From positions 1 to 51,740 of IMG/VR virus record IMGVR_UViG_3300044940_000294: a DNA stretch of 51,740 bases; one strand, given 5' to 3'. The translations under genes and the position numbers were made by a program. How positions within the stretch are numbered: position 1 is the stretch's first letter; each line of letters begins with the position of its first letter. Positions 4,296-30,446 of this stretch are shown here, piece after piece. Source of the DNA: a virus. The notes below the pieces were generated by a model. That model was not told the DNA's origin. It did not search any database and saw only the letters and a program-made list of their open reading frames with translations.

Positions 4296-5411
4296 ATGAG
4301 TACAAAAACAATCACGATTAGAGAACGTAAAGGCAAAAAAGGAGTAACCCTTGTATTGGATATTTACGAAGATGGGCAAAGGTATTTTGAAACTTTGAAA
4401 GATGACCAAGGACAAACCTTGAAAATCTTTGAAAACCCTAAAAGTACAGAAGAACGGCAACATAATAAACTTATCCGCCAATATGCACAAACTATTAAAG
4501 CCAAAAGAGAGGCAGAACTCTTGACAGGCAATTACAGTGTAAAGGCAAAGGAGAACTTCAATAAGGCAGACTTTTTGGCTTTTATTTTGTTGGTGGCAGA
4601 ACAGAAAAACAGTAAGGAACTCTACCATCAATTACATATTTTCCTCAAAAAAAGGCAACCTATTATTACTTTTCAAGACATCAATAAGGTAGAGTTCTTA
4701 GAAAAGGTTAAAAGTTGGCTATTAGCCGACTTAAAACAGAGTAGTGCAAAGACTTATTACAACTTGCTTTGCCACGTATTAAGAATAGCACACAAAAAAG
4801 GCATTATCAACACCAATAACATAGAGAAAGTAGAGAGCATAAAAAGCCCTCCAAAGGTGTTAAAGTATTTGGAATTAGATGAACTAAAGCAACTTTTTAG
4901 CACACCACCGCCCAAATCAAAGTATGATGTAAAGACAATTTGCTTGTTTGCTTTTTATACCTTGTTGCGTGTATCGGATATTTACAGCCTTAAATGGAAA
5001 AATATTGTTAAGATAGGTGGTAGTTGGTACATTCAAAAGAACATTCAGAAAATCCAATCTGAAAAAATTATAGCCTTGAACGAACAAGCTGTTAGTTTAT
5101 TACCCGAAAGAGGGCAAGATGATGATTATGTATTTAATCTATTTCAACACAAGTTTAAAAAAGTACATAACTTTGGCATTACGATGGATGGACTAATTCG
5201 TAAGTGGGCTAAAAGTGCAGGGCTTACGAAAAAGGTAAGTATGCACACTTTTCGGCATAGTGGGGCTACGGCAATGGTTACGGCAGGTGTGGACATTTAC
5301 ACTATAAGCAAACAACTCACGCATAGTTCTATTGCGACTTCGCAAATCTACGCACAAGTTGTTCTGGATAAACAGAAAGAGGCGGCCAACAAAATGCCAA
5401 AGGTTTTTTAA
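4296..5411 (+). CDS. int: Tyrosine integrase
   Basis: 371 residues, the usual length. An N-terminal arm-binding region (1-95), a SAM-like core-binding domain (about 95-185) and a C-terminal catalytic domain. Catalytic residues are visible: Arg225 in [12 protein letters not shown], His317-x-x-Arg320 in [12 protein letters not shown], His343 in [10 protein letters not shown] and the nucleophile Tyr352 in SQIYAQ. This mediates site-specific integration into the host chromosome, making the phage temperate. The start is fixed by the repeat cluster immediately upstream. Its end overlaps that of thyA tail to tail by four bases. Confidence 0.92.
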
Positions 5412-6202
5412 ACAGCTACTTTTGCTTTAATAGCGGGGTGTGGTCCGTAATTCAAAAACTGAATGTCCTCGTAAGTAAAGGCGAAAATGTCTTTTACTGC
5501 GGGGTTCAGTTGTAATGTAGGCAATGGCTTTGGCTCTCTACTTAACTGCAAATGAGCTTGTTCTAAGTGGTTCAAGTATAAATGAGCATCTCCCAACGTA
5601 TGCACAAATTCGCCAACTTGTAAGCTACAAACCTGTGCTACCATGTGGGTAAGCAAGGCGTAACTTGCTATGTTAAAGGGTACACCCAAAAATACATCTG
5701 CACTTCGTTGGTACAGCATACAAGACAATTTGCCTTCTGCCACGTAGAATTGGAACAAGACATGACACGGGGGCAAAGCCATTGTATTGATGTCTGCCAC
5801 ATTCCACGCTGACACTATCAAACGTCTTGAATCGGGGTTGCTTTTGATTTGGTTAATGACTTGACTAATCTGGTCTATGCTTTGTCCGTTAGGTGTTTCC
5901 CAACTCCGCCACTGATAACCGTACACTTTGCCCAAGTTGCCGTTTGCGTCTGCCCACTTGTCCCAAATAGAAACACCGTTGTCTTTCAAGTATTTAATAT
6001 TGGTTTCACCTTGCAAGAACCAAAGCAACTCGTGAACAATAGATTTAGTATGCAGCTTTTTTGTAGTAACCAACGGAAACCCTTGAGCCAAGTCAAAACG
6101 CATTTGGTAGCCAAAAATGCTTTTTGTGCCTGTGCCTGTACGGTCTGTTTTGGGTACTCCTTCATTTAATATTTTTTGGAGTAATTCGTGGTATTGGTGC
6201 AT
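5408..6202 (-). CDS. thyA: Thymidylate synthase
   Basis: 264 residues, the same length as E. coli ThyA. Contains the catalytic Cys146 in [14 protein letters not shown], the dUMP-binding [13 protein letters not shown] (126-138), the [19 protein letters not shown] stretch and [12 protein letters not shown]. Makes dTMP from dUMP with methylene-tetrahydrofolate. In phages it raises dTTP supply for an AT-rich genome. Nothing in the active site suggests the dUMP-hydroxymethylase variant used for base hypermodification. Convergent with int. Confidence 0.93.
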
Positions 6203-12783: not shown

Positions 12784-15021
12784 TTACACTATTGCACCCA
12801 AAACACCCCTGCAATGACAATGAAATGGTGGCTTACTAAAACCCCTATCCGCTAATTGTTCCTCTGTCAGGTTCCGAAAGTCATCTATGCCTACACTTGT
12901 CGCAAATGGTGGCAAATCATCTAAACCATTCTCCAATTCATTAATAAGGTTCGCAACAGACTTTTTCACGAAAAACTCCTTACCATTCATTACTTTACAA
13001 TGAGGGCAGGTAAGCCTATCATTAACTTCTATGATAGTGTACTTTTCTACCTTTGCTTGCTGCATATACAACAAATTTGCATTGGTACGAACCTTATTCA
13101 TGGTTGTATTGATGACCCTTGTTATTTTCCATTGTTCAAGCTGTAAAACATTTTGCAGGTCATTCGTTACTTCTTGCACCAAATCAGCAATGTCCGTGTC
13201 GCCTTCGTAATAAGCCCTCAAAAGTTGTGTAAGCCTTGTAACCATTTCAGGGTCAGTAATGATATTGCCCAAATACTGTATGTCCGCAGCAATCAAATAA
13301 TCTATAACCCTCTGGTCAAGGAAATTACTTGTAGGGTCTGGTGGCACGAAGTCAAAATTGAATTTCGTACCAAACACCCTTTTGTCTTTCCGAAAGTAAT
13401 CATAGCTATTGCTTACGTGCTTTGTGCAAATGTCTTTTAAATTGCCTATAAACGACTTTCCCCCTACATTGGCTAATTTATCAAGTATTGCCTTTTCAAG
13501 TGCCTCAAACGATTTGTATTCTTTTTTTAGCACACTTTTACAAGCCTTACCAAAGTCATCTATAAAGTCATTGTATAGTTTTTCAGCGGCATTGATGTAA
13601 TCCTTTGCAAATTGGTTCTGTTTACGGTCAGGGAACCCCGCGTACGCTAAACATTCTTTCGGAATGGAATAATCAAACTTCGCCTTAGTTGCTGTAAAAG
13701 AAAATTGTTGTGGCTCGTCTTGTATGTAAGGCTGACTATAACCTAATCTTTCTGCGTATTGTTGCTTGCTAATAATGCCGTCTGCAAACAACTTTTGCAT
13801 ATTGCTTATTTGCTTTTCCGTAATTTGTTCTGCCAATAACCTATCTTCGGGCATTGCCTCCTCAAATTCAATGGTTACGCTTCTTGGAGAATAGCCCGCC
13901 AATGTCAATTCTAACAAAATGGTTTCTTCTAACCATGTAGCTACTCTTTGCTGAAAAGCCCTGTATTGTTGTGCCATTTTTTTCAACACAACCTTGGTAA
14001 AAGCCTCACTAACAGTATAGCTCTCCCCCATCATGTTAGGGTCTTGTTTTAAACTTTGATAAGTAATCAAATTGATTATCTTGAAAAAAGACTCCACCCC
14101 ATTTGCATTAGAATTAGCATTTTCAATCTCCATTTCATATTGGTTTTTTAAACCAACCACAATGCCATTCGCACTGCTCCGTTGCACGGCTTTGTACGTG
14201 TCTTGTAAATATTTCTGAACTCTTTGCTCATACACATCGTCAGCCTCACCATCTTGCTGTTCTGGGGCATCTACCAACACTTTATACAACCCTGCAATAC
14301 CAACCTTACGCAATATTGTCTTAAAGGACTTCCACATTTCATTTTCAAAAGCAACGCTGTCTATCACAGACAACAAAAAAGGAACACCGTACAAAGAAGT
14401 ATCTGTAAGCTGCAAAGGAATGTAGCTATAAGTCTTTCCTAATGGTGTCCCCATAATACCAAAGTTATCTAAATTATTTAACTGCACCAAGTAAGGTTTT
14501 TCGTTCCCCTTACGAACCCAACGTATTGTATAAGGATTAATAAACTCTATTCTATCAATCCCTGATAGATTTTTGTTTATTATCCTATCAATGCTTATAC
14601 AGCCCTTTACAGCTAACTGGAAGAATATAGTGTCTAAAATCACATCATTCCCGCCTACGTACCATTCATTCATTTTTGCCTCAATGTGGCTACGCATTTG
14701 TCGCTGTTTTCGTGGGGCGATTGTTTCATCAAAGTAGATTTGATATTTAGTATTCGCTAATTTGATGTTACTTATAGCTAAACTCACCTTTGGGTGGTGA
14801 ACCGCCAAATTGCCTAACATCAACAAAATACTTGGTTCAAACTCATCCCTTTGGTACATAGGTATATCACCTATTACCGTACCGTAACTATCCGTAGGGG
14901 CAGCCGTATTACCAGGGAGTACCTCCAATTTCCTAACATTCTTTTCATCTGTTGTTAATTTAATCCTATGTCTTTGAAAAATAGGATTAAAATAATTATA
15001 TATTTTGTTAAATATTGACAT
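12784..15021 (-). CDS. Portal protein fused to gpF-like minor head protein
   Basis: 745 residues, longer than a portal alone. Residues 1-430 are a Mu gp29/DUF935-type portal (DEFEPSILLMLGNLAVHHPK, PNMMGESYTVSEAFTKVVLK, GIISKQQYAERLGYSQPY). The C-terminal part (about 560-745) is the Mu F / SPP1 gp7 head-morphogenesis domain with ITRVINTTMNKVRTNANLL, DRLTCPHCKVMNGKEF and the final PPFHCHCRGVL, whose Cys/His pairs may bind zinc. Elsewhere these are usually two adjacent genes; here there is one continuous ORF. Follows terL on the same strand after 31 bases. Confidence 0.85.
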   Translation of the reverse strand: MSIFNKIYNYFNPIFQRHRIKLTTDEKNVRKLEVLPGNTAAPTDSYGTVIGDIPMYQRDEFEPSILLMLGNLAVHHPKVSLAISNIKLANTKYQIYFDETIAPRKQRQMRSHIEAKMNEWYVGGNDVILDTIFFQLAVKGCISIDRIINKNLSGIDRIEFINPYTIRWVRKGNEKPYLVQLNNLDNFGIMGTPLGKTYSYIPLQLTDTSLYGVPFLLSVIDSVAFENEMWKSFKTILRKVGIAGLYKVLVDAPEQQDGEADDVYEQRVQKYLQDTYKAVQRSSANGIVVGLKNQYEMEIENANSNANGVESFFKIINLITYQSLKQDPNMMGESYTVSEAFTKVVLKKMAQQYRAFQQRVATWLEETILLELTLAGYSPRSVTIEFEEAMPEDRLLAEQITEKQISNMQKLFADGIISKQQYAERLGYSQPYIQDEPQQFSFTATKAKFDYSIPKECLAYAGFPDRKQNQFAKDYINAAEKLYNDFIDDFGKACKSVLKKEYKSFEALEKAILDKLANVGGKSFIGNLKDICTKHVSNSYDYFRKDKRVFGTKFNFDFVPPDPTSNFLDQRVIDYLIAADIQYLGNIITDPEMVTRLTQLLRAYYEGDTDIADLVQEVTNDLQNVLQLEQWKITRVINTTMNKVRTNANLLYMQQAKVEKYTIIEVNDRLTCPHCKVMNGKEFFVKKSVANLINELENGLDDLPPFATSVGIDDFRNLTEEQLADRGFSKPPFHCHCRGVLGAIV

Positions 15022-15052: not shown

Positions 15053-16387
15053 TTAATATGGCAGAGCTATTCCACTCGCAAAAATTCTTTTTTCGGGCTG
15101 CAAATCAAAGTAAGACCGCATCATTAGCATATCTGAAAAGTCAGGCGACCTACCTATCGCCTTTTTGATTTCGTCTTTTTTCAAGACGGCTAATTTCCCC
15201 TCTTTGTCAATTTTTGCATTTTTTATGAACCCTAACTCCTGATTCAAAAAGTTCTTATCTTCTAAGGATAATTTAGCCTCAATATAAACTTCGTTGTTGT
15301 TGATTTTATCTGCCAAATAGAAGTGGCATTGGTCTTTCAAACTAGCGTACTCTACTTTTTGCCCTTTGATAGCAATAGGTTTTGAGCCGTTGTGAAACGA
15401 AATAGCATTTTGCAAATAGCCTTTGAGGTAAGCCCCTATACCGTCTCCGTCATACACTATTCTACGGTGTGGTACGTTATGCCTATCGGCTGTCTTACGT
15501 ATGACTTCCTCTATTTCATTAGCCTTGCTTTTTTTCAGTACAATGACTTCTACCAATCTCCACCCATTCCAAACGCCTAAGACGAATTTATCCGAACCAT
15601 GCAAGGCTATATCGGCAGTAATGTACTTATTGCCACCCGCCACAAAAAAGTTTGTATAAAGGTCTGCAATAGCACTGTATTCAATTAGTTTCGCGGGGTC
15701 ATCGTCATAATCCCAGTTTCCCTTTAACAATCTCTCTATACTTGCTTCGTCCAAAGAAGCAAGGTTATCTATGTACCGTTTAGCAAGGTGTGGGTTGTCG
15801 GTAGCAAGAGCCTGTATAAATTGAATTCCTTTTGGGAGTAATCCCTTGCGGTATTTATCAAAGTAATTGTCGTAAACCCAATTTTTTGCAGGGTTACAAG
15901 ACATTAGTATTTTTTCAATGCCGTAAACGTCTAACCTGTGCCGACAACGTGATTTTACTACGTTCTTTGCCTTTTCTACTAATTGGTTTACTTCGTCCAA
16001 AAAAGCCCCTGTAATTTCCAAAGAACCTAAGTTGTCAAATTCGGGATCAGAAGGATAGTGAAACAAGTCTTTCAGGATAATTACTGAACCGTTTGAAAAC
16101 CGTATTTCATTGGCTTGCTGATTGAATACATAGTGCTTATTAGCTTTTATGTTTTGCATACTTGCCACTTTATAGAAAGACTGCAAAGTGGTTTGTTTCA
16201 AGATATTTAATTTTTTACGCCCCATTAGCCACCTTGTATCGGGGTAACGCATAGCACTTTTCAACAAGAAATAAACCCCCAAAATAGATTTACCTCCGCC
16301 TGCTGCACCACCGTACAGCACTTCAGAGGTTTCTCTATCTTGGATAAAATCCAATGCTTTAGTTTGTTTCTTGTTGAGGACTATCAT
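15053..16387 (-). CDS. terL: Terminase large subunit
   Basis: 444 residues. Packaging ATPase with Walker A GGAAGGGKS (26-34) and Walker B GAFLDEV (127-133), then an RNase H-like nuclease with acidic residues in YITADIAL (Asp259), VYDGDGIGAY (Asp313/315) and RSPDFSDMLMM (Asp416/419). Cuts and pumps phage DNA into the prohead through the portal. Overlaps the small subunit gene by 29 bases. Confidence 0.93.
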   Translation of the reverse strand: MIVLNKKQTKALDFIQDRETSEVLYGGAAGGGKSILGVYFLLKSAMRYPDTRWLMGRKKLNILKQTTLQSFYKVASMQNIKANKHYVFNQQANEIRFSNGSVIILKDLFHYPSDPEFDNLGSLEITGAFLDEVNQLVEKAKNVVKSRCRHRLDVYGIEKILMSCNPAKNWVYDNYFDKYRKGLLPKGIQFIQALATDNPHLAKRYIDNLASLDEASIERLLKGNWDYDDDPAKLIEYSAIADLYTNFFVAGGNKYITADIALHGSDKFVLGVWNGWRLVEVIVLKKSKANEIEEVIRKTADRHNVPHRRIVYDGDGIGAYLKGYLQNAISFHNGSKPIAIKGQKVEYASLKDQCHFYLADKINNNEVYIEAKLSLEDKNFLNQELGFIKNAKIDKEGKLAVLKKDEIKKAIGRSPDFSDMLMMRSYFDLQPEKRIFASGIALPY

Positions 16388-18745: not shown

Positions 18746-18962
18746 GGATTTAAGAAACCTATTGTTCGAAACTGTTGAAAGACTTTTGGACGAGGATAAC
18801 CCTATGGAAGTGTCAAGGGCAAAGGCAATAGCAGATGTCGCAGGTGTCATTGTAGATAGTGCCAAAGTAGAGGTTGATATGGCAAGAACAGTAAACGGCT
18901 TTACAGGTTCAGGATTTATACCTGTTGATAAGCCAAACGAAAACATAAAACTGCTCAAATAA
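18729..18962 (+). CDS. Small helical protein, unknown (77 residues)
   Basis: MRNKIEDLRNLLFETVERLL start, then NPMEVSRAKAIADVAGVIVD and AKVEVDMARTVNG. Two amphipathic helices likely oligomerise. Its stop overlaps the dnaN start by one base. I recall similar unnamed proteins in Bacteroidota phages, without known function. Confidence 0.65.
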   Translation: MRNKIEDLRNLLFETVERLLDEDNPMEVSRAKAIADVAGVIVDSAKVEVDMARTVNGFTGSGFIPVDKPNENIKLLK

Positions 18963-20092
18963 TGAATATTATTATCAATTCAGCCAGCTTATTGAAGCAA
19001 CTAAACGCCTTGAAAGGTGTTTTGTTAAGTAATCCTATCATGCCTATATTGGAGAATTTCTTATTTGATGTAAATGGGCAGAAATTGACCATTACGGCAT
19101 CAGATATGCAAAACACGATTACGGCAGAAGTAAATGTGGATAGTGATACAGATGGGCGTATTTGTATTCCTGCAAGAATGTTTATGGAAACCTTGCAGAA
19201 TTTGCCCGAACAGCCTATTACGATAAAAGCCAACTTAGAAACCTTTGCGGTGGAAATTGTGGCTAACAAAGGTCGTTACCGTTTGGCTGGGGAGGATTCA
19301 AGTGATTATCCTTTGCCGAGAACCACACAAAAAAGCACCAATTCTATTGAATTGCAGAGTGAAGTTTTGTCAAGTGCTATTGCCTATACATTGTTTGCAG
19401 TAAGTAAAGACGAAATGAAACCTGCTATGAATGGTATGTATGTCAATATTAAGCCTGACAAGGCAGATTTTGTAACGACAGACAGCTACCGTTTGGTAAG
19501 GTATCGTAGAACAGATGTAACGAGTGAGACCGAAATTTCGGTTATTTTGCCTAAAAAAGCCCTATCATTACTGAAAGGTGCTTTGCCCGACAACAGCATG
19601 GTAAAATTGGGGTTTACCAATTCCAATGCTTTTTTTGAGTTTGGCAATATGAAGTTAGTTTGCAGATTGATAGACGAGAGATTCCCTGATTACGAAAATG
19701 TCATTCCTTTGAACAATAGCAATGTCTTGACATTTGACAAAAAGGAAACCTTAGGGGCTTTGAAAAGAGTAGGCATTTACGCGAACAAAACAACTAATTT
19801 GCTCAAATTAAAATTAGATTTAGAGCATAGTTTTGTGGTATCTGCCGAAAATGCGGACTTTGAGAGTGAGGCGAGTGAAAATGTAGAGGCAGAGTATATG
19901 GGTGCAGAAATGTTGGTAGGCTTTCAATATTTCATGTTGGCGGAGATGTTATCGGCAATATTGACTGAAAACATCAAACTATCATTATCAGCCCCTAATC
20001 GTGCAGCTTTGATATTGCCACAATACCAAACGGCAAACGAAGAAGTTTTGATGTTGATTATGCCATTGAGTTTAGATGCATATAGGTACTAA
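18962..20092 (+). CDS. dnaN: DNA polymerase III beta clamp, phage copy
   Basis: 376 residues, the bacterial beta-clamp length, with three repeated clamp domains. Recognisable pieces: LKGVLLSNPIMPILENFLFD, GRYRLAGEDSSDYPLPRTT, DSYRLVRYRR, ERFPDYENVIP and the C-terminal MLIMPLSLDAYRY. The ring tethers polymerase to DNA. No polymerase gene is seen in the window, so this clamp presumably recruits host Pol III or competes with the host clamp. Followed by a terminator. Confidence 0.9.
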   Translation: MNIIINSASLLKQLNALKGVLLSNPIMPILENFLFDVNGQKLTITASDMQNTITAEVNVDSDTDGRICIPARMFMETLQNLPEQPITIKANLETFAVEIVANKGRYRLAGEDSSDYPLPRTTQKSTNSIELQSEVLSSAIAYTLFAVSKDEMKPAMNGMYVNIKPDKADFVTTDSYRLVRYRRTDVTSETEISVILPKKALSLLKGALPDNSMVKLGFTNSNAFFEFGNMKLVCRLIDERFPDYENVIPLNNSNVLTFDKKETLGALKRVGIYANKTTNLLKLKLDLEHSFVVSAENADFESEASENVEAEYMGAEMLVGFQYFMLAEMLSAILTENIKLSLSAPNRAALILPQYQTANEEVLMLIMPLSLDAYRY

Positions 20093-21856: not shown

Positions 21857-22031
21857 TAGATACTAAAATGTATCATGTATTGAATTTATTTTAACAACAA
21901 ATAATGCGACAACTTTAAAAAGTTTAAAGAAATTTTTTTGCCCTAACCTATAAATATTTTAAATATTTTAAACAAATTTTATTAGTTTTTTCAATATCAA
22001 TTACTACATTTGCATAGTTAAATTTTTAGCT
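21857..22031. promoter_or_regulatory. Intergenic AT-rich region with promoter for the parB-like genes
   Basis: -7 box TACATTTG at 22005-22012 and start codon at 22032. The -33 box is not clear (TTAG at 21982-21985). No gene seen. Confidence 0.5.
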
Positions 22032-22700
22032 ATGCAAATTCCTTTTCACAACCCAAACAACTTAGCCCTGATAGATTACCGAAAGTTAGAGGGCATACAA
22101 GGCAATCTCAAATACCTTCCGATAGAAAACAGAGAAAAACTACTGAATAGCTTGCAAAAATTTGGTTTCTTTGAGCCTTTTCAAGTATGGAAAGACCAAG
22201 ATACTTACAAGTTGGTAGATGGACACGCAAGGCTCAAATTCTTTTTAGAGTACCAAGTTACGAACCAAAACAACGGCTACGAATTCCCTTATCTTATCGT
22301 GGAGGCAAAGAACTTGCAAGAGGCAAAAGAAAAGTTAGCCGTAATCAGTTCGCAATACCACACCATTACGCCTCACGGTTGGGAGGAATTTAGCCAAGAC
22401 ATGGACAAAGATTTTTTAGCAAACTCCGTACACTTTGATTTATTAGCAAAAGAATTGGCGGAGTTCGCCAAACAGCAAGAATATGTACCAACAAAAGCAG
22501 ATGACTTACCAATCATACCCATAGACAAAGACGACAACAGTTCTAAGGGGACATCTGTACCAATTATGAAGTTTGGCAAAACCACCATTAATATTACTGA
22601 AGAAGAATTAGACTTACTCAACCAAAAATTTACTGAATACACGCAGGAAACCAAAGTCCCTTACGGTTTCGTGCATTTCTTAATCAACCCTAACGACTAA
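22032..22700 (+). CDS. ParB/sulfiredoxin-fold protein
   Basis: 222 residues. Residues 25-110 show the ParB-N/Srx fold: LNSLQKFGFFEPFQVWKDQD, then YKLVDGHARLKFFLE with the GHAR motif (64-67) typical of ParB-type CTP/ATP-binding proteins. The C-terminal half is acidic and lacks the classical ParB HTH, so partition is unlikely. Overlaps the next gene by one base (TAATG). Phage ParB-fold proteins of this kind often work with methyltransferases or in nucleotide/DNA modification. Confidence 0.75.
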   Translation: MQIPFHNPNNLALIDYRKLEGIQGNLKYLPIENREKLLNSLQKFGFFEPFQVWKDQDTYKLVDGHARLKFFLEYQVTNQNNGYEFPYLIVEAKNLQEAKEKLAVISSQYHTITPHGWEEFSQDMDKDFLANSVHFDLLAKELAEFAKQQEYVPTKADDLPIIPIDKDDNSSKGTSVPIMKFGKTTINITEEELDLLNQKFTEYTQETKVPYGFVHFLINPND

Positions 22701-24097
22701 TGAATTTTATAGCTAATTATCCAATTAAAGACCTTACACCAGCCTCTTACAACCCTCGTGAAATTACGGAACAAGGCTTTACAAAATTGCAGGAAAGTAT
22801 AAAGAAATTCGGCATAGTAAAACCTGTAATTATCAACGGTGCAGACGGAACACTCACCGCAGGGCACCAGCGAACCAAAGCCCTTAAAGCAATAGGCATT
22901 ACCCACGTACCAGCTATGCGTTTACCCTCTATTGGTAGGCACGATGAGATTAACTTCAACTTGCAACACAATAGAATAGAAGAGAATAAGAGTGTGGTCA
23001 TGGTACAAAATGCAAAAGAGCTGCCTTGGGGCTTTTCCGTAATTTCCCACAAGGATTACAAAGTAGAAATAACCGACAATGCAGCTATTATACAAACCAT
23101 TGCCAAAATGATAGCCCGATACGGAGATTGGGGTAGTTGTGTGATAGACGAAAACGGCTTAGTCATTGAAAATGCAGAGTACGCCGTTGCAGCCAAAGCC
23201 ACACATAGGCAGCTATTAGTGTATAAAATGCAAAACAGCCTAATTCCTGAATTTAAGCAATACATGAGGCAGGATTACGGTGAGTATAAGTACGAAAAGT
23301 TAGGTATCAAGCCCTATAACCAAACACATTGCCAAATGCACAGACTAACAGGGGGTAGGCAAAATAGTAGTACAACGTATGAAAACTTGGTACTGCCTAA
23401 TTTGGAAAAAGGTAAAAGGTTAGTAGATTTTGGTGCAGGGGAACAGGCGTATGTGAAACTCTTGCAACAAAAGGGCTACAAAGCCTTTGCTTACGAACCA
23501 CACCCACGTATTCAAGGAAAAATTGCGTTTGACATTCCTTTGGTGGTCAAGATGATAAGGGAGTTAGCCAAAGACGTAAAAGCAAATGGTTTGTACGATT
23601 ACGTAGTGTTGGATAGTGTCATCAATTCTATTACCACGATTGAATTTCAGCACTTAGTTATGTTAGCTTGTAATGCCTTGTGTAAAAAGAATGGTATATT
23701 TTTCATTGGGACAAGGGCAATGGAAAAGATAACTAAGCAGGAAAACGTGAAAATAGCTACTTCAACGCACCGTTACGTTGAATACTTTGATAAGAACTTA
23801 TTTACAGCAACTTTCCGTATGGGTGTCTGGACATTACAAAAAATGCACACCAAAGAAAGTTTTATCGAAATGCTACAAACCTACTTTGAGGAGGTAACGG
23901 TTACGAAAAAGTACGGTTCATCTATGCACCACGCTATTTGTCGTAAACCAAAACAGTTTAGTAGCGAGGAGTACCGAAAGGCATTAGATATTGAATTTAA
24001 CATGGAGTACCCAAATGGTTATAGGCACAACCAACAAAAAGAATTAGTAAACGAATTATTGTATGCCTTACATCAAAGAAGCCAAGATAACAGCTAA
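22700..24097 (+). CDS. ParB-fold protein fused to SAM methyltransferase
   Basis: 465 residues. N-terminal ParB/Srx domain: DLTPASYNPREITEQGFTKL, FGIVKPVIINGADGTLTAGHQ with GHQR at 55-58. From about 235 a class I methyltransferase: motif I LVDFGAGEQAYVKLL (about 240-254), the acidic strand YKAFAYEPHPR, and motif IV-position VVLDSVINSIT (about 302-312). Motif IV is not the DPPY/NPPY of adenine or N4-cytosine methylases nor the PC of C5 methylases, so the target is unclear. Partner of the ParB-like gene upstream. Confidence 0.75.
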   Translation: MNFIANYPIKDLTPASYNPREITEQGFTKLQESIKKFGIVKPVIINGADGTLTAGHQRTKALKAIGITHVPAMRLPSIGRHDEINFNLQHNRIEENKSVVMVQNAKELPWGFSVISHKDYKVEITDNAAIIQTIAKMIARYGDWGSCVIDENGLVIENAEYAVAAKATHRQLLVYKMQNSLIPEFKQYMRQDYGEYKYEKLGIKPYNQTHCQMHRLTGGRQNSSTTYENLVLPNLEKGKRLVDFGAGEQAYVKLLQQKGYKAFAYEPHPRIQGKIAFDIPLVVKMIRELAKDVKANGLYDYVVLDSVINSITTIEFQHLVMLACNALCKKNGIFFIGTRAMEKITKQENVKIATSTHRYVEYFDKNLFTATFRMGVWTLQKMHTKESFIEMLQTYFEEVTVTKKYGSSMHHAICRKPKQFSSEEYRKALDIEFNMEYPNGYRHNQQKELVNELLYALHQRSQDNS

Positions 24098-24464
24098 TTT
24101 TAAATACTTGTGGTTGAAGTACGTAAAGGGCTTTGACATAACGGAACATTGTGCGAAGTGCTTGCTTGGAGAGTACGAAAAGCAAGTATCTCCAAAAGGC
24201 ATTTTTACAGGGGATTTGCCTATTGCACCCTATTATTACTTGTGTGGTGTATCTATGCCTTTTGTGTGGGCAAACAATTTTCATTTGGCATTTGAGGCGA
24301 AAGAGGGTAGTACGTTGGTTATTGAAAGAAACGGCATTGTCTTAGTGATAGACAATGCCGTTGAATTGGAAATTAAGCCTCCTACTATACAACTTACGCA
24401 CAAAAAAGAGTTTACCACTTGTCGTAATTGGCAGTTTGCGGTAAATAAGGTTTTAGAGCAATAA
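24063..24464 (+). CDS. Unknown protein after the methyltransferase (133 residues)
   Basis: MPYIKEAKITANFKYLWLKY start inside the methyltransferase gene (35-base overlap). Contains EHCAKCLLGEYEKQ with a Cys pair, GDLPIAPYYYLCGVSMPFVW, and strands (GSTLVIERNGIVLVIDNAVE). Strong translational coupling suggests it acts with the ParB-methyltransferase. Ends tail to tail with the next minus-strand gene by 12 bases. Confidence 0.55.
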   Translation: MPYIKEAKITANFKYLWLKYVKGFDITEHCAKCLLGEYEKQVSPKGIFTGDLPIAPYYYLCGVSMPFVWANNFHLAFEAKEGSTLVIERNGIVLVIDNAVELEIKPPTIQLTHKKEFTTCRNWQFAVNKVLEQ

Positions 24465-29426: not shown

Positions 29427-29865
29427 TGAGGATAGGCTGCAACAGGATTGTGCTATGTGGTTTAAGAACACCTACAAGCATTTTGCAAAGGCTTTTTACA
29501 TGATAAACAACGCAGGTACAAAGACCAAAGTAAGGGCAGCACAAGACAAGGCAATGGGTATTACAAGGGGAGTCCCCGACACGCATTTAGTTGTACCAAG
29601 AGGTGGTTATCATAGTTTGTTTGTAGAGTTCAAAGTAGGTAAGAATGTACTAAGCCCCGAACAGAAAGCAACAAAGGCATTTTTTGAGAGTTTGGGGCAT
29701 AAAGTAGTGGTTTGTTACAGTTTACAAGAGTTTCAGGAGGCAATCGTGAGTTATTTATTCCCTTATCACGAGGCGAGATTAGTAGTAAGACAAGGAGAAG
29801 ATGTTTGTTTTTTAAACCCTCAATTTGAAGTATGTACGAACAAATTAATTTTCAGGAGTTGGTAG
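29380..29865 (+). CDS. VRR-NUC nuclease
   Basis: 161 residues. Active site of the PD-(D/E)XK VRR-NUC family: NNAGTKTKVRAAQ, GITRGVPDTHLVV (Pro-Asp 66-67), FVEFKVGKNVLSPEQK (Glu83, Lys85), then GHKVVVCYSLQEF. Stand-alone VRR-NUC proteins of phages cut branched DNA (Holliday junction type). A later start near 29437 cannot be excluded. Follows the primase-helicase. Confidence 0.85.
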   Translation: MKKGSQSAIHQTTLISEDRLQQDCAMWFKNTYKHFAKAFYMINNAGTKTKVRAAQDKAMGITRGVPDTHLVVPRGGYHSLFVEFKVGKNVLSPEQKATKAFFESLGHKVVVCYSLQEFQEAIVSYLFPYHEARLVVRQGEDVCFLNPQFEVCTNKLIFRSW

Positions 29866-30446
29866 AACAGTGCCACAATGCAGCAAAGGCAAAAGGATTT
29901 TGGGAGGTAGAGAGAAATATTGGTGAGGCAAAGGCATTAATTATTAGCGAATTGTGCGAGGCATTAGAGGCTGCACGTAAGGGGAAGTACACGAATAAAA
30001 AAGTGTATGCAGATATAGTTTTTCTACATCTTAATAATGATGAAGAATTTGTAGCCTATTTTAAAGAACACATCAAAGACACCGTAGAGGACGAGTTGGC
30101 AGATACGATTATTAGGACTTTTGATTATATCGGTGGTTTCTTTGCGCCAACAAAAGAGTTGGCAATGCCTACTTGTAAAGGACTTGAGCCTAGTCAAGAG
30201 GAAATGAGTGTAAATTTTTGCAATATCTTAAAATATCACCAAAATAAGCCTAAAAAAGAAATAGAAAACATAGGTGAATCCATTTACGATGCAATAGCTA
30301 TGCTTATTCAGTTTGATGCCCCTATCTATTTTTTAACTAATGTTTTTATGTTGGCAAAAGAATTAGAAGTTCCTATTTTGTTTCACATACAAGCCAAGTT
30401 ACGGTACAATAGCACAAGACCACAAAAGCATGGTAAACAGTTCTAA
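29832..30446 (+). CDS. MazG-like nucleotide pyrophosphohydrolase
   Basis: 204 residues. LIISELCEALEAARKGKY (Glu40, Glu43, Glu46) and later VEDELADTIIRTFDYIGG provide the E-x-x-E ... E-x-x-D metal-binding set of the all-alpha NTP-PPase superfamily. Hydrolyses noncanonical or signalling nucleotides, or trims dNTPs. The last 90 residues look like a second, degenerate copy of the helical unit (IGESIYDAIAMLIQF). Overlaps the VRR gene by 34 bases and ends the operon before a terminator. Confidence 0.75.
   Translation: MYEQINFQELVEQCHNAAKAKGFWEVERNIGEAKALIISELCEALEAARKGKYTNKKVYADIVFLHLNNDEEFVAYFKEHIKDTVEDELADTIIRTFDYIGGFFAPTKELAMPTCKGLEPSQEEMSVNFCNILKYHQNKPKKEIENIGESIYDAIAMLIQFDAPIYFLTNVFMLAKELEVPILFHIQAKLRYNSTRPQKHGKQF

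Follow-up and report, generated by a model that had tools for sequence, protein, structure and literature searches.

A linked three-gene phage module built around a ParB–methyltransferase fusion

Fusions of ParB and methyltransferase domains are common in phages, and their role was left open in two papers from December 2025 (PMC12704722, PMC12783734). The closest described proteins join ParB_N to Methyltransf_23 (PF02195 + PF13489), and a recent survey of ParB folds already reports them as phage-enriched (Kaljevic et al. PNAS 2025, PMC12704722). The same survey describes ParB folds bound to CTP, ATP or GTP, with ATP bound in the bacterial SAM methyltransferase fusions, and a specificity that is not readable from sequence. 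In a second system, the phage DNA-modification carboxymethyltransferase CmoX carries an SPPC motif and often has a ParBc protein encoded nearby (PMC12783734). Here we compare these systems with a module of three linked genes, one of them such a fusion, in a virus record.

The module lies in a virus record of 51,740 bases (the window, that is, the whole stretch of DNA analysed) belonging to a temperate phage with an integrase at 4296-5411. The host is probably a member of the Bacteroidota, since the closest relatives of the window terminase belong to Flavobacterium, Cellulophaga and Bacteroides phages. This Terminase_3-type large terminase (15053-16387) and the portal protein (12784-15021) are encoded on the minus strand, and the module itself is flanked by the sliding-clamp gene (DnaN; 18962-20092, plus strand) and by two minus-strand genes for repressor-like HTH proteins. 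Thymidylate synthase (5408-6202, minus strand) and a pyrophosphatase-like protein (29832-30446, plus strand) are also encoded; together with DnaN they form a nucleotide and replication set, and unusual DNA precursors would be worth a look in this phage.

All three module genes are real and on the plus strand, and they overlap, the initial annotation having noted that they overlap or abut: ORF1 encodes a ParB-fold partner of 222 amino acids (22032-22700) with a Box II GHxR motif (VDGHAR) and a conserved C-terminal half; ORF2 (22700-24097) encodes a fusion of 465 amino acids with ParB, putative degenerate ParB-like and methyltransferase domains; and ORF3 encodes a protein of 133 amino acids (24063-24464), here called U. 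The overlaps are 1 nt between ORF1 and ORF2 (TAATG) and 35 nt between ORF2 and ORF3. Straddling the ORF1 start codon is an inverted repeat (22008-22039, no strand assigned) whose 10-bp arms, ATTTGCATAG and CTATGCAAAT, pair perfectly; it could be an operator. Repeats of at least 13 matched pairs were present near the start of the partner ParB gene in four other relatives, a length reached by 0 of 620 shuffles; such repeats may be terminators of the preceding gene. A promoter scan yielded matches at no more than the chance level.

ORF1 had no match in Pfam, nor did tblastn with ORF1 alone find a match in the phage collection. It does match ParB-type PHROG profiles, and its family profile aligned with ParB and Noc structures (E ~1e-9), with SerK among its structure matches, and with the ParB domain of ORF2 (E ~1e-20 to 1e-26). 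ORF2 scored above the Pfam cut-offs for both ParB_N (32 bits; cut-off 26.3) and Methyltransf_23 (31.1 bits; cut-off 27), and is covered nearly end to end by PHROG 5475 (residues 4-443 on profile positions 3-442 of 458, E 3.7e-86). Its structure was modelled with AlphaFold2 from 58 sequences (mean pLDDT 93.6). Pfam, structure and conservation together place a ParB-CTPase-type fold at residues 1-96 (22700-22987, plus strand), and the model of these residues superposed on CTP- and CDP-bound ParBs with an rmsd of 1.6-1.8 across 91-93 residues. The following residues, 99-201 (22994-23302, plus strand), show the strand and helix order of a ParB fold in the model, and their profile aligned by hhalign with that of 65 partner ParBs over 88 columns (E 2e-7, score 44.8; top score of 60 column-shuffled controls, 16.7). 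We read this segment as a second ParB-like domain, apparently degenerate because the GHxR motif is absent from it.

The pocket of the first ParB domain is strictly conserved. Among 76 ORF2 relatives, each representing one 80%-identity cluster, Y17-N18-P19-R20 (YNPR; 22748-22759, plus strand), A54-G55-H56-Q57-R58 (AGHQR; 22859-22873, plus strand), E83, N87, H90 and N91 were invariant (76/76). Residues N18 and H56 align to Q52 and E93 of Myxococcus xanthus ParB, and mutants of these two residues were described as defective in CTP hydrolysis (PMC9178275). The ORF2 pocket has thus retained the phosphate-binding arginine while both hydrolysis residues were replaced by a fixed Asn and a fixed His. 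Nucleotide binding by this fold is predicted, and the Box II arginine R58 is conserved in 76/76 relatives; we leave the nucleotide unnamed because sequence does not reveal specificity according to the survey (PMC12704722).

The remainder of ORF2 carries a Methyltransf_23-type Rossmann methyltransferase domain at about residues 222-420 (23363-23959, plus strand), with the features of class I SAM methyltransferases. In motif I (DFGAG; 23426-23440, plus strand), D243, G245 and G247 of the D-x-G-x-G pattern were conserved in 76/76 relatives, and the acidic residue after beta 2 (E266) in 74/76, the remaining two having Asp. The motif IV position reads LDSVINS (residues 304-310; 23609-23629, plus strand; family consensus DSVLNSV), as the initial annotation had correctly stated, with V307 and N309 in 76/76 relatives and D305 and S310 in 73/76. 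Neither NPPY/DPPY nor PC occurs at this position in any of the 76 relatives; that is, motif IV of ORF2 bears neither the (D/N/S)PP(Y/F/W) signature of DNA N6A/N4C methyltransferases nor the PC motif of DNA C5 methyltransferases. A sequencing error or a decayed motif is excluded by this conservation, and LDSVINS/DSVLNSV is instead characteristic of the family; it fits enzymes of the Methyltransf_23 type and differs from what DNA amino- and C5-methyltransferases have there.

In the model, residues 202-419 superposed on class I methyltransferases with Z of about 12-13.5; the Foldseek and VIA neighbours included toxoflavin N-methyltransferase, METTL6, Trm9 and glycine N-methyltransferase, and the methyltransferase profile matched UbiG (E about 9e-9). 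The closest solved folds act on small molecules or tRNA, and none of them on DNA. The earlier inference that the reaction may not be a standard base methylation remains a fair one, given these neighbours and the missing amino and C5 signatures, whereas the oddity of the motif holds only relative to DNA methyltransferases, since motif IV sequences of this kind are no surprise in Methyltransf_23-type enzymes.

Protein U appears to represent an undescribed protein family that is tied almost exclusively to the ParB–methyltransferase fusion. Its sequence had no match in Pfam, PHROGs, NCBIfam, PADLOC or the PDB, and tblastn with U alone found none in the phage collection. No known family was matched by more than 3 of 39 U family members, and two isolated weak matches, to DUF4796_C (3/39 members) and to PPIL2 (E 0.08), were judged to be chance. 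The model (mean pLDDT 96.8) is small and rich in beta strands, ending in a C-terminal helix, and nothing significant was found for this fold in the PDB (best Foldseek E 0.44, weak Z up to 4.2); a C2/CS-like beta-sandwich was considered and set aside, the corresponding hits, at Z up to 4.2, being uninformative. Fold matches in BFVD were limited to two uncharacterised phage proteins (E ~1e-10). Across 39 relatives, W17, C30, C61, N72, H74, C120-R121-N122 and F125 were invariant and H29 nearly so, and the invariant Cys3/His set hints at metal binding or thiol chemistry.

Conservation of the linkage was assessed in 80 viral and 48 genomic relatives. In the scan of viral contigs, a single fusion protein retrieved nothing and a 6-sequence alignment was too diverse, whereas a 4-sequence alignment worked. 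Judging by record titles, hosts of the genomic relatives included Actinomycetota, Bacillota, Bacteroidota, Pseudomonadota, Chlorobiota, Verrucomicrobiota, Chloroflexota, Planctomycetota and others. Of the 62 independent clusters in the viral and phage set that had 400 nt or more of upstream sequence, 60 had a ParB-family gene upstream of the methyltransferase gene, and in 56 it overlapped the methyltransferase gene or lay within 50 nt of it; overlaps were mostly 1-17 nt, with 4 or 8 nt the commonest. Homologues of U were detected in 50 loci and stood at the methyltransferase 3' end in 31 of the 64 clusters with enough downstream DNA, about half of the relatives having no detectable adjacent U. 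When the search started from U alone, the ParB–methyltransferase was present in the fetched flanks of 44/48 independent U clusters, and in 34/36 of those flanked by over 2 kb on each side. The four U clusters without it comprised two cut contigs, L172, which is on the same contig as L018 (which has it), and L202. The last, with both flanks present and no ParB–methyltransferase nearby or known elsewhere on the contig, is possibly a stand-alone U.

The orientation of U is less constant than its position: in five loci (L034, L039, L049, L057 and L065), U still occupies the methyltransferase 3' end but is encoded on the other strand, the two genes converging with a short overlap. Adjacent tandem paralogues of the fusion were seen in three loci (L080, L105, L122), two of them from Chloroflexota genomes and the third from a viral contig.

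Pairwise distances of the methyltransferase (n = 32) correlated with those of the partner ParB (r 0.64) and of U (r 0.57), and in the 24 loci with TerL the correlations were 0.67 with ParB and 0.68 with U, against 0.49 with TerL; these values are supporting evidence only, as phage kinship alone would give some correlation. Adjacency of the module genes across relatives was far above chance. Among the homologues the genes were not always apart, the outcome that would have refuted a unit, and the original proposal of one functional unit is well supported by the ParB pairing, the 3' position of U and the reciprocal search. Probably the three genes work as a unit in methylating some target, for which the DNA of the phage itself is the likeliest candidate.

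The neighbourhood of the module points towards packaging or late DNA. TerL was encoded within 4.5 kb downstream and on the same strand in 46/67 clusters and upstream in 1/51, and a terminase-like ORF was visible by eye in several of the remaining clusters. The window is an exception, with its terminase ~6 kb from the module and on the opposite strand. Terminase types near the module are diverse while the module is constant. Of 5,426 complete E. coli genomes, 71 also have near-identical fusion genes, almost always on plasmids (~48 kb among the matches listed) and mostly annotated as ParB N-terminal domain proteins. One of these plasmids, p142_C (L209, 5506-25171), is a 47.5-kb phage-plasmid with the ParB pair, a third ParB-family gene that a single gene separates from TerL, and a ParA gene about 13 kb from the pair; the E. 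coli phage-plasmids and 613R2 have such a third gene directly before the gene preceding TerL.

The best explanation of these observations, to which we assign a probability of about 0.42, is that the module encodes one phage enzyme complex for nucleotide-gated methylation of phage DNA around packaging. By analogy with other ParB folds, the ParB domains of ORF1 and ORF2 would form a nucleotide-binding assembly that docks on DNA and positions the Methyltransf_23-type SAM methyltransferase, which may then mark phage DNA elsewhere than at the classical sites, the exocyclic amines and C5, at about the time when the DNA passes to the terminase. U would be a small accessory protein, the Cys3/His set of which could bind metal or act chemically. 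The linkage counts (ParB pair 60/62, reciprocal U link 44/48, TerL downstream 46/67) and the distance correlations argue for this explanation, as do the motif I and ParB pocket residues fixed in 76/76 relatives, the superposition on CTP- and CDP-bound ParBs and, from the survey, the ATP-bound ParB–SAM methyltransferase fusions and the phage enrichment of Methyltransf_23 fusions (PMC12704722). Three features make phage DNA the likeliest target: the presence of ParB folds, the proximity to terminase in most relatives and the readiness with which phages fuse ParB to DNA methyltransferases (PMC12704722, PMC12783734). The DNA modification or counter-defence role proposed at the outset is plausible. 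A more specific form of the idea, in which DNA or nucleic-acid modification coupled to packaging would depend on a heteromeric ParB switch (Asn/His for Gln/Glu) gating the methyltransferase, with U as partner and a novel mark as product, is unlikely; its methyltransferase class has no known members with DNA as substrate. Against methylation of phage DNA in general, the nearest folds are small-molecule and tRNA enzymes, so that the class gives no direct support for DNA, the window module is not beside the terminase, adjacent U was undetected in about half of the relatives, and annotation covering parts of the genomes of two fusion-carrying phages, Bacteroides phage BS-TP3 and Gordonia phage Evaa, recognised no base-modification or hypermodification genes.

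The same fold neighbours and UbiG match, together with the missing DNA amino- and C5-methyltransferase motifs, would be consistent with a target other than DNA (tRNA, other RNA, protein or a small molecule), methylated in evading or shutting down host functions while the ParBs sense nucleotide; SerK and sulfiredoxin are ParB folds acting as small-molecule or protein enzymes (PMC12704722). Such neighbours are common to the whole class, however, and point to no particular substrate, and the ParB folds beside packaging genes, with the frequent phage ParB–DNA methyltransferase fusions (PMC12783734), favour DNA; we regard a non-DNA target as somewhat improbable. The strong one-sided TerL proximity might also indicate a role of the module in regulating or aiding the start of packaging: the ParBs would clamp the DNA at pac or cos, or offer terminase a platform for loading there, and a methyl mark on DNA or on a packaging protein would set the timing and not protect. 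The third ParB-family gene near TerL in the E. coli phage-plasmids and 613R2 and the known behaviour of ParB folds as DNA clamps (PMC12704722) would fit such a function; but other late and accessory genes share this place, proximity alone is weak, the window module stands apart from the terminase and terminase types vary around a constant module, and we consider it doubtful. That the ParB parts are anti-defence nucleases or nickases, with the methyltransferase protecting self DNA as in a miniature restriction-modification unit, is very unlikely: DNA nicking was reported for ParB proteins, among them the ParB–adenine methylase fusion Bce_0392 (PMC5512222), and a PADLOC Type II methyltransferase model matches ORF2 (E 8e-16), but only in its ParB part, and no nuclease domain was recognised in the three module proteins. 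Least probable is a partition system for maintenance of a plasmid-like prophage, despite the ParB homology and the E. coli relatives on phage-plasmids of about 48 kb. No match to ParA (PF13614) was found in the window record, which may be a fragment, with the control positive in 14/14 genomes; no HTH domain was found, the CTPase catalytic positions are replaced, the window phage has an integrase, and the ParA gene of p142_C is far from the pair. A partition role was rejected on the absent ParA match and the altered pocket.

Titles and abstracts searched, covering few subscription journals, contained no description of the three-gene unit, U, the second ParB-like fold or the order relative to terminase; what is known is the fusion type and a PHROG. 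The fusions of Kaljevic et al. share the ParB_N + Methyltransf_23 architecture of ORF2, which matches PHROG 5475 over its full length, whereas the available text of their survey (PMC12704722) makes no mention of a ParB partner gene, of protein U or of a second ParB-like domain; the word terminase is absent from that text, the terminase linkage being a feature of the module relatives analysed here. The ParB–N6/N4 DNA methyltransferase fusions of PHROG 498 (e.g., in Streptococcus Javan phages) are homologous in the ParB domain only, and the ORF2 methyltransferase lacks their PP-aromatic motif IV. CmoX differs in fusion architecture and in its SPPC motif, which is absent from ORF2. UbiG (by profile), Trm9, METTL6 and glycine N-methyltransferase resemble the ORF2 methyltransferase in fold (Z about 12-13), at 9-16% identity in structural alignments, but have no ParB domains. 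Canonical ParB/Spo0J/Noc CTPases share the N-terminal fold and the phosphate-binding arginine with ORF2, which has Asn and His in place of M. xanthus Q52 and E93, no HTH found, and no ParA match in the window; the TIGR00180 domain score, 25.1 bits, falls below the cut-off of 58.45. Set beside these systems, the phage fusion now becomes part of a defined three-gene unit with a fixed partner ParB, a new family U, named conserved residues and a mapped terminase link, for which the E. coli phage-plasmids offer a tractable home; if the module modifies DNA, phage anti-restriction or packaging control would gain a further chemistry and a mechanism gated by nucleotide.
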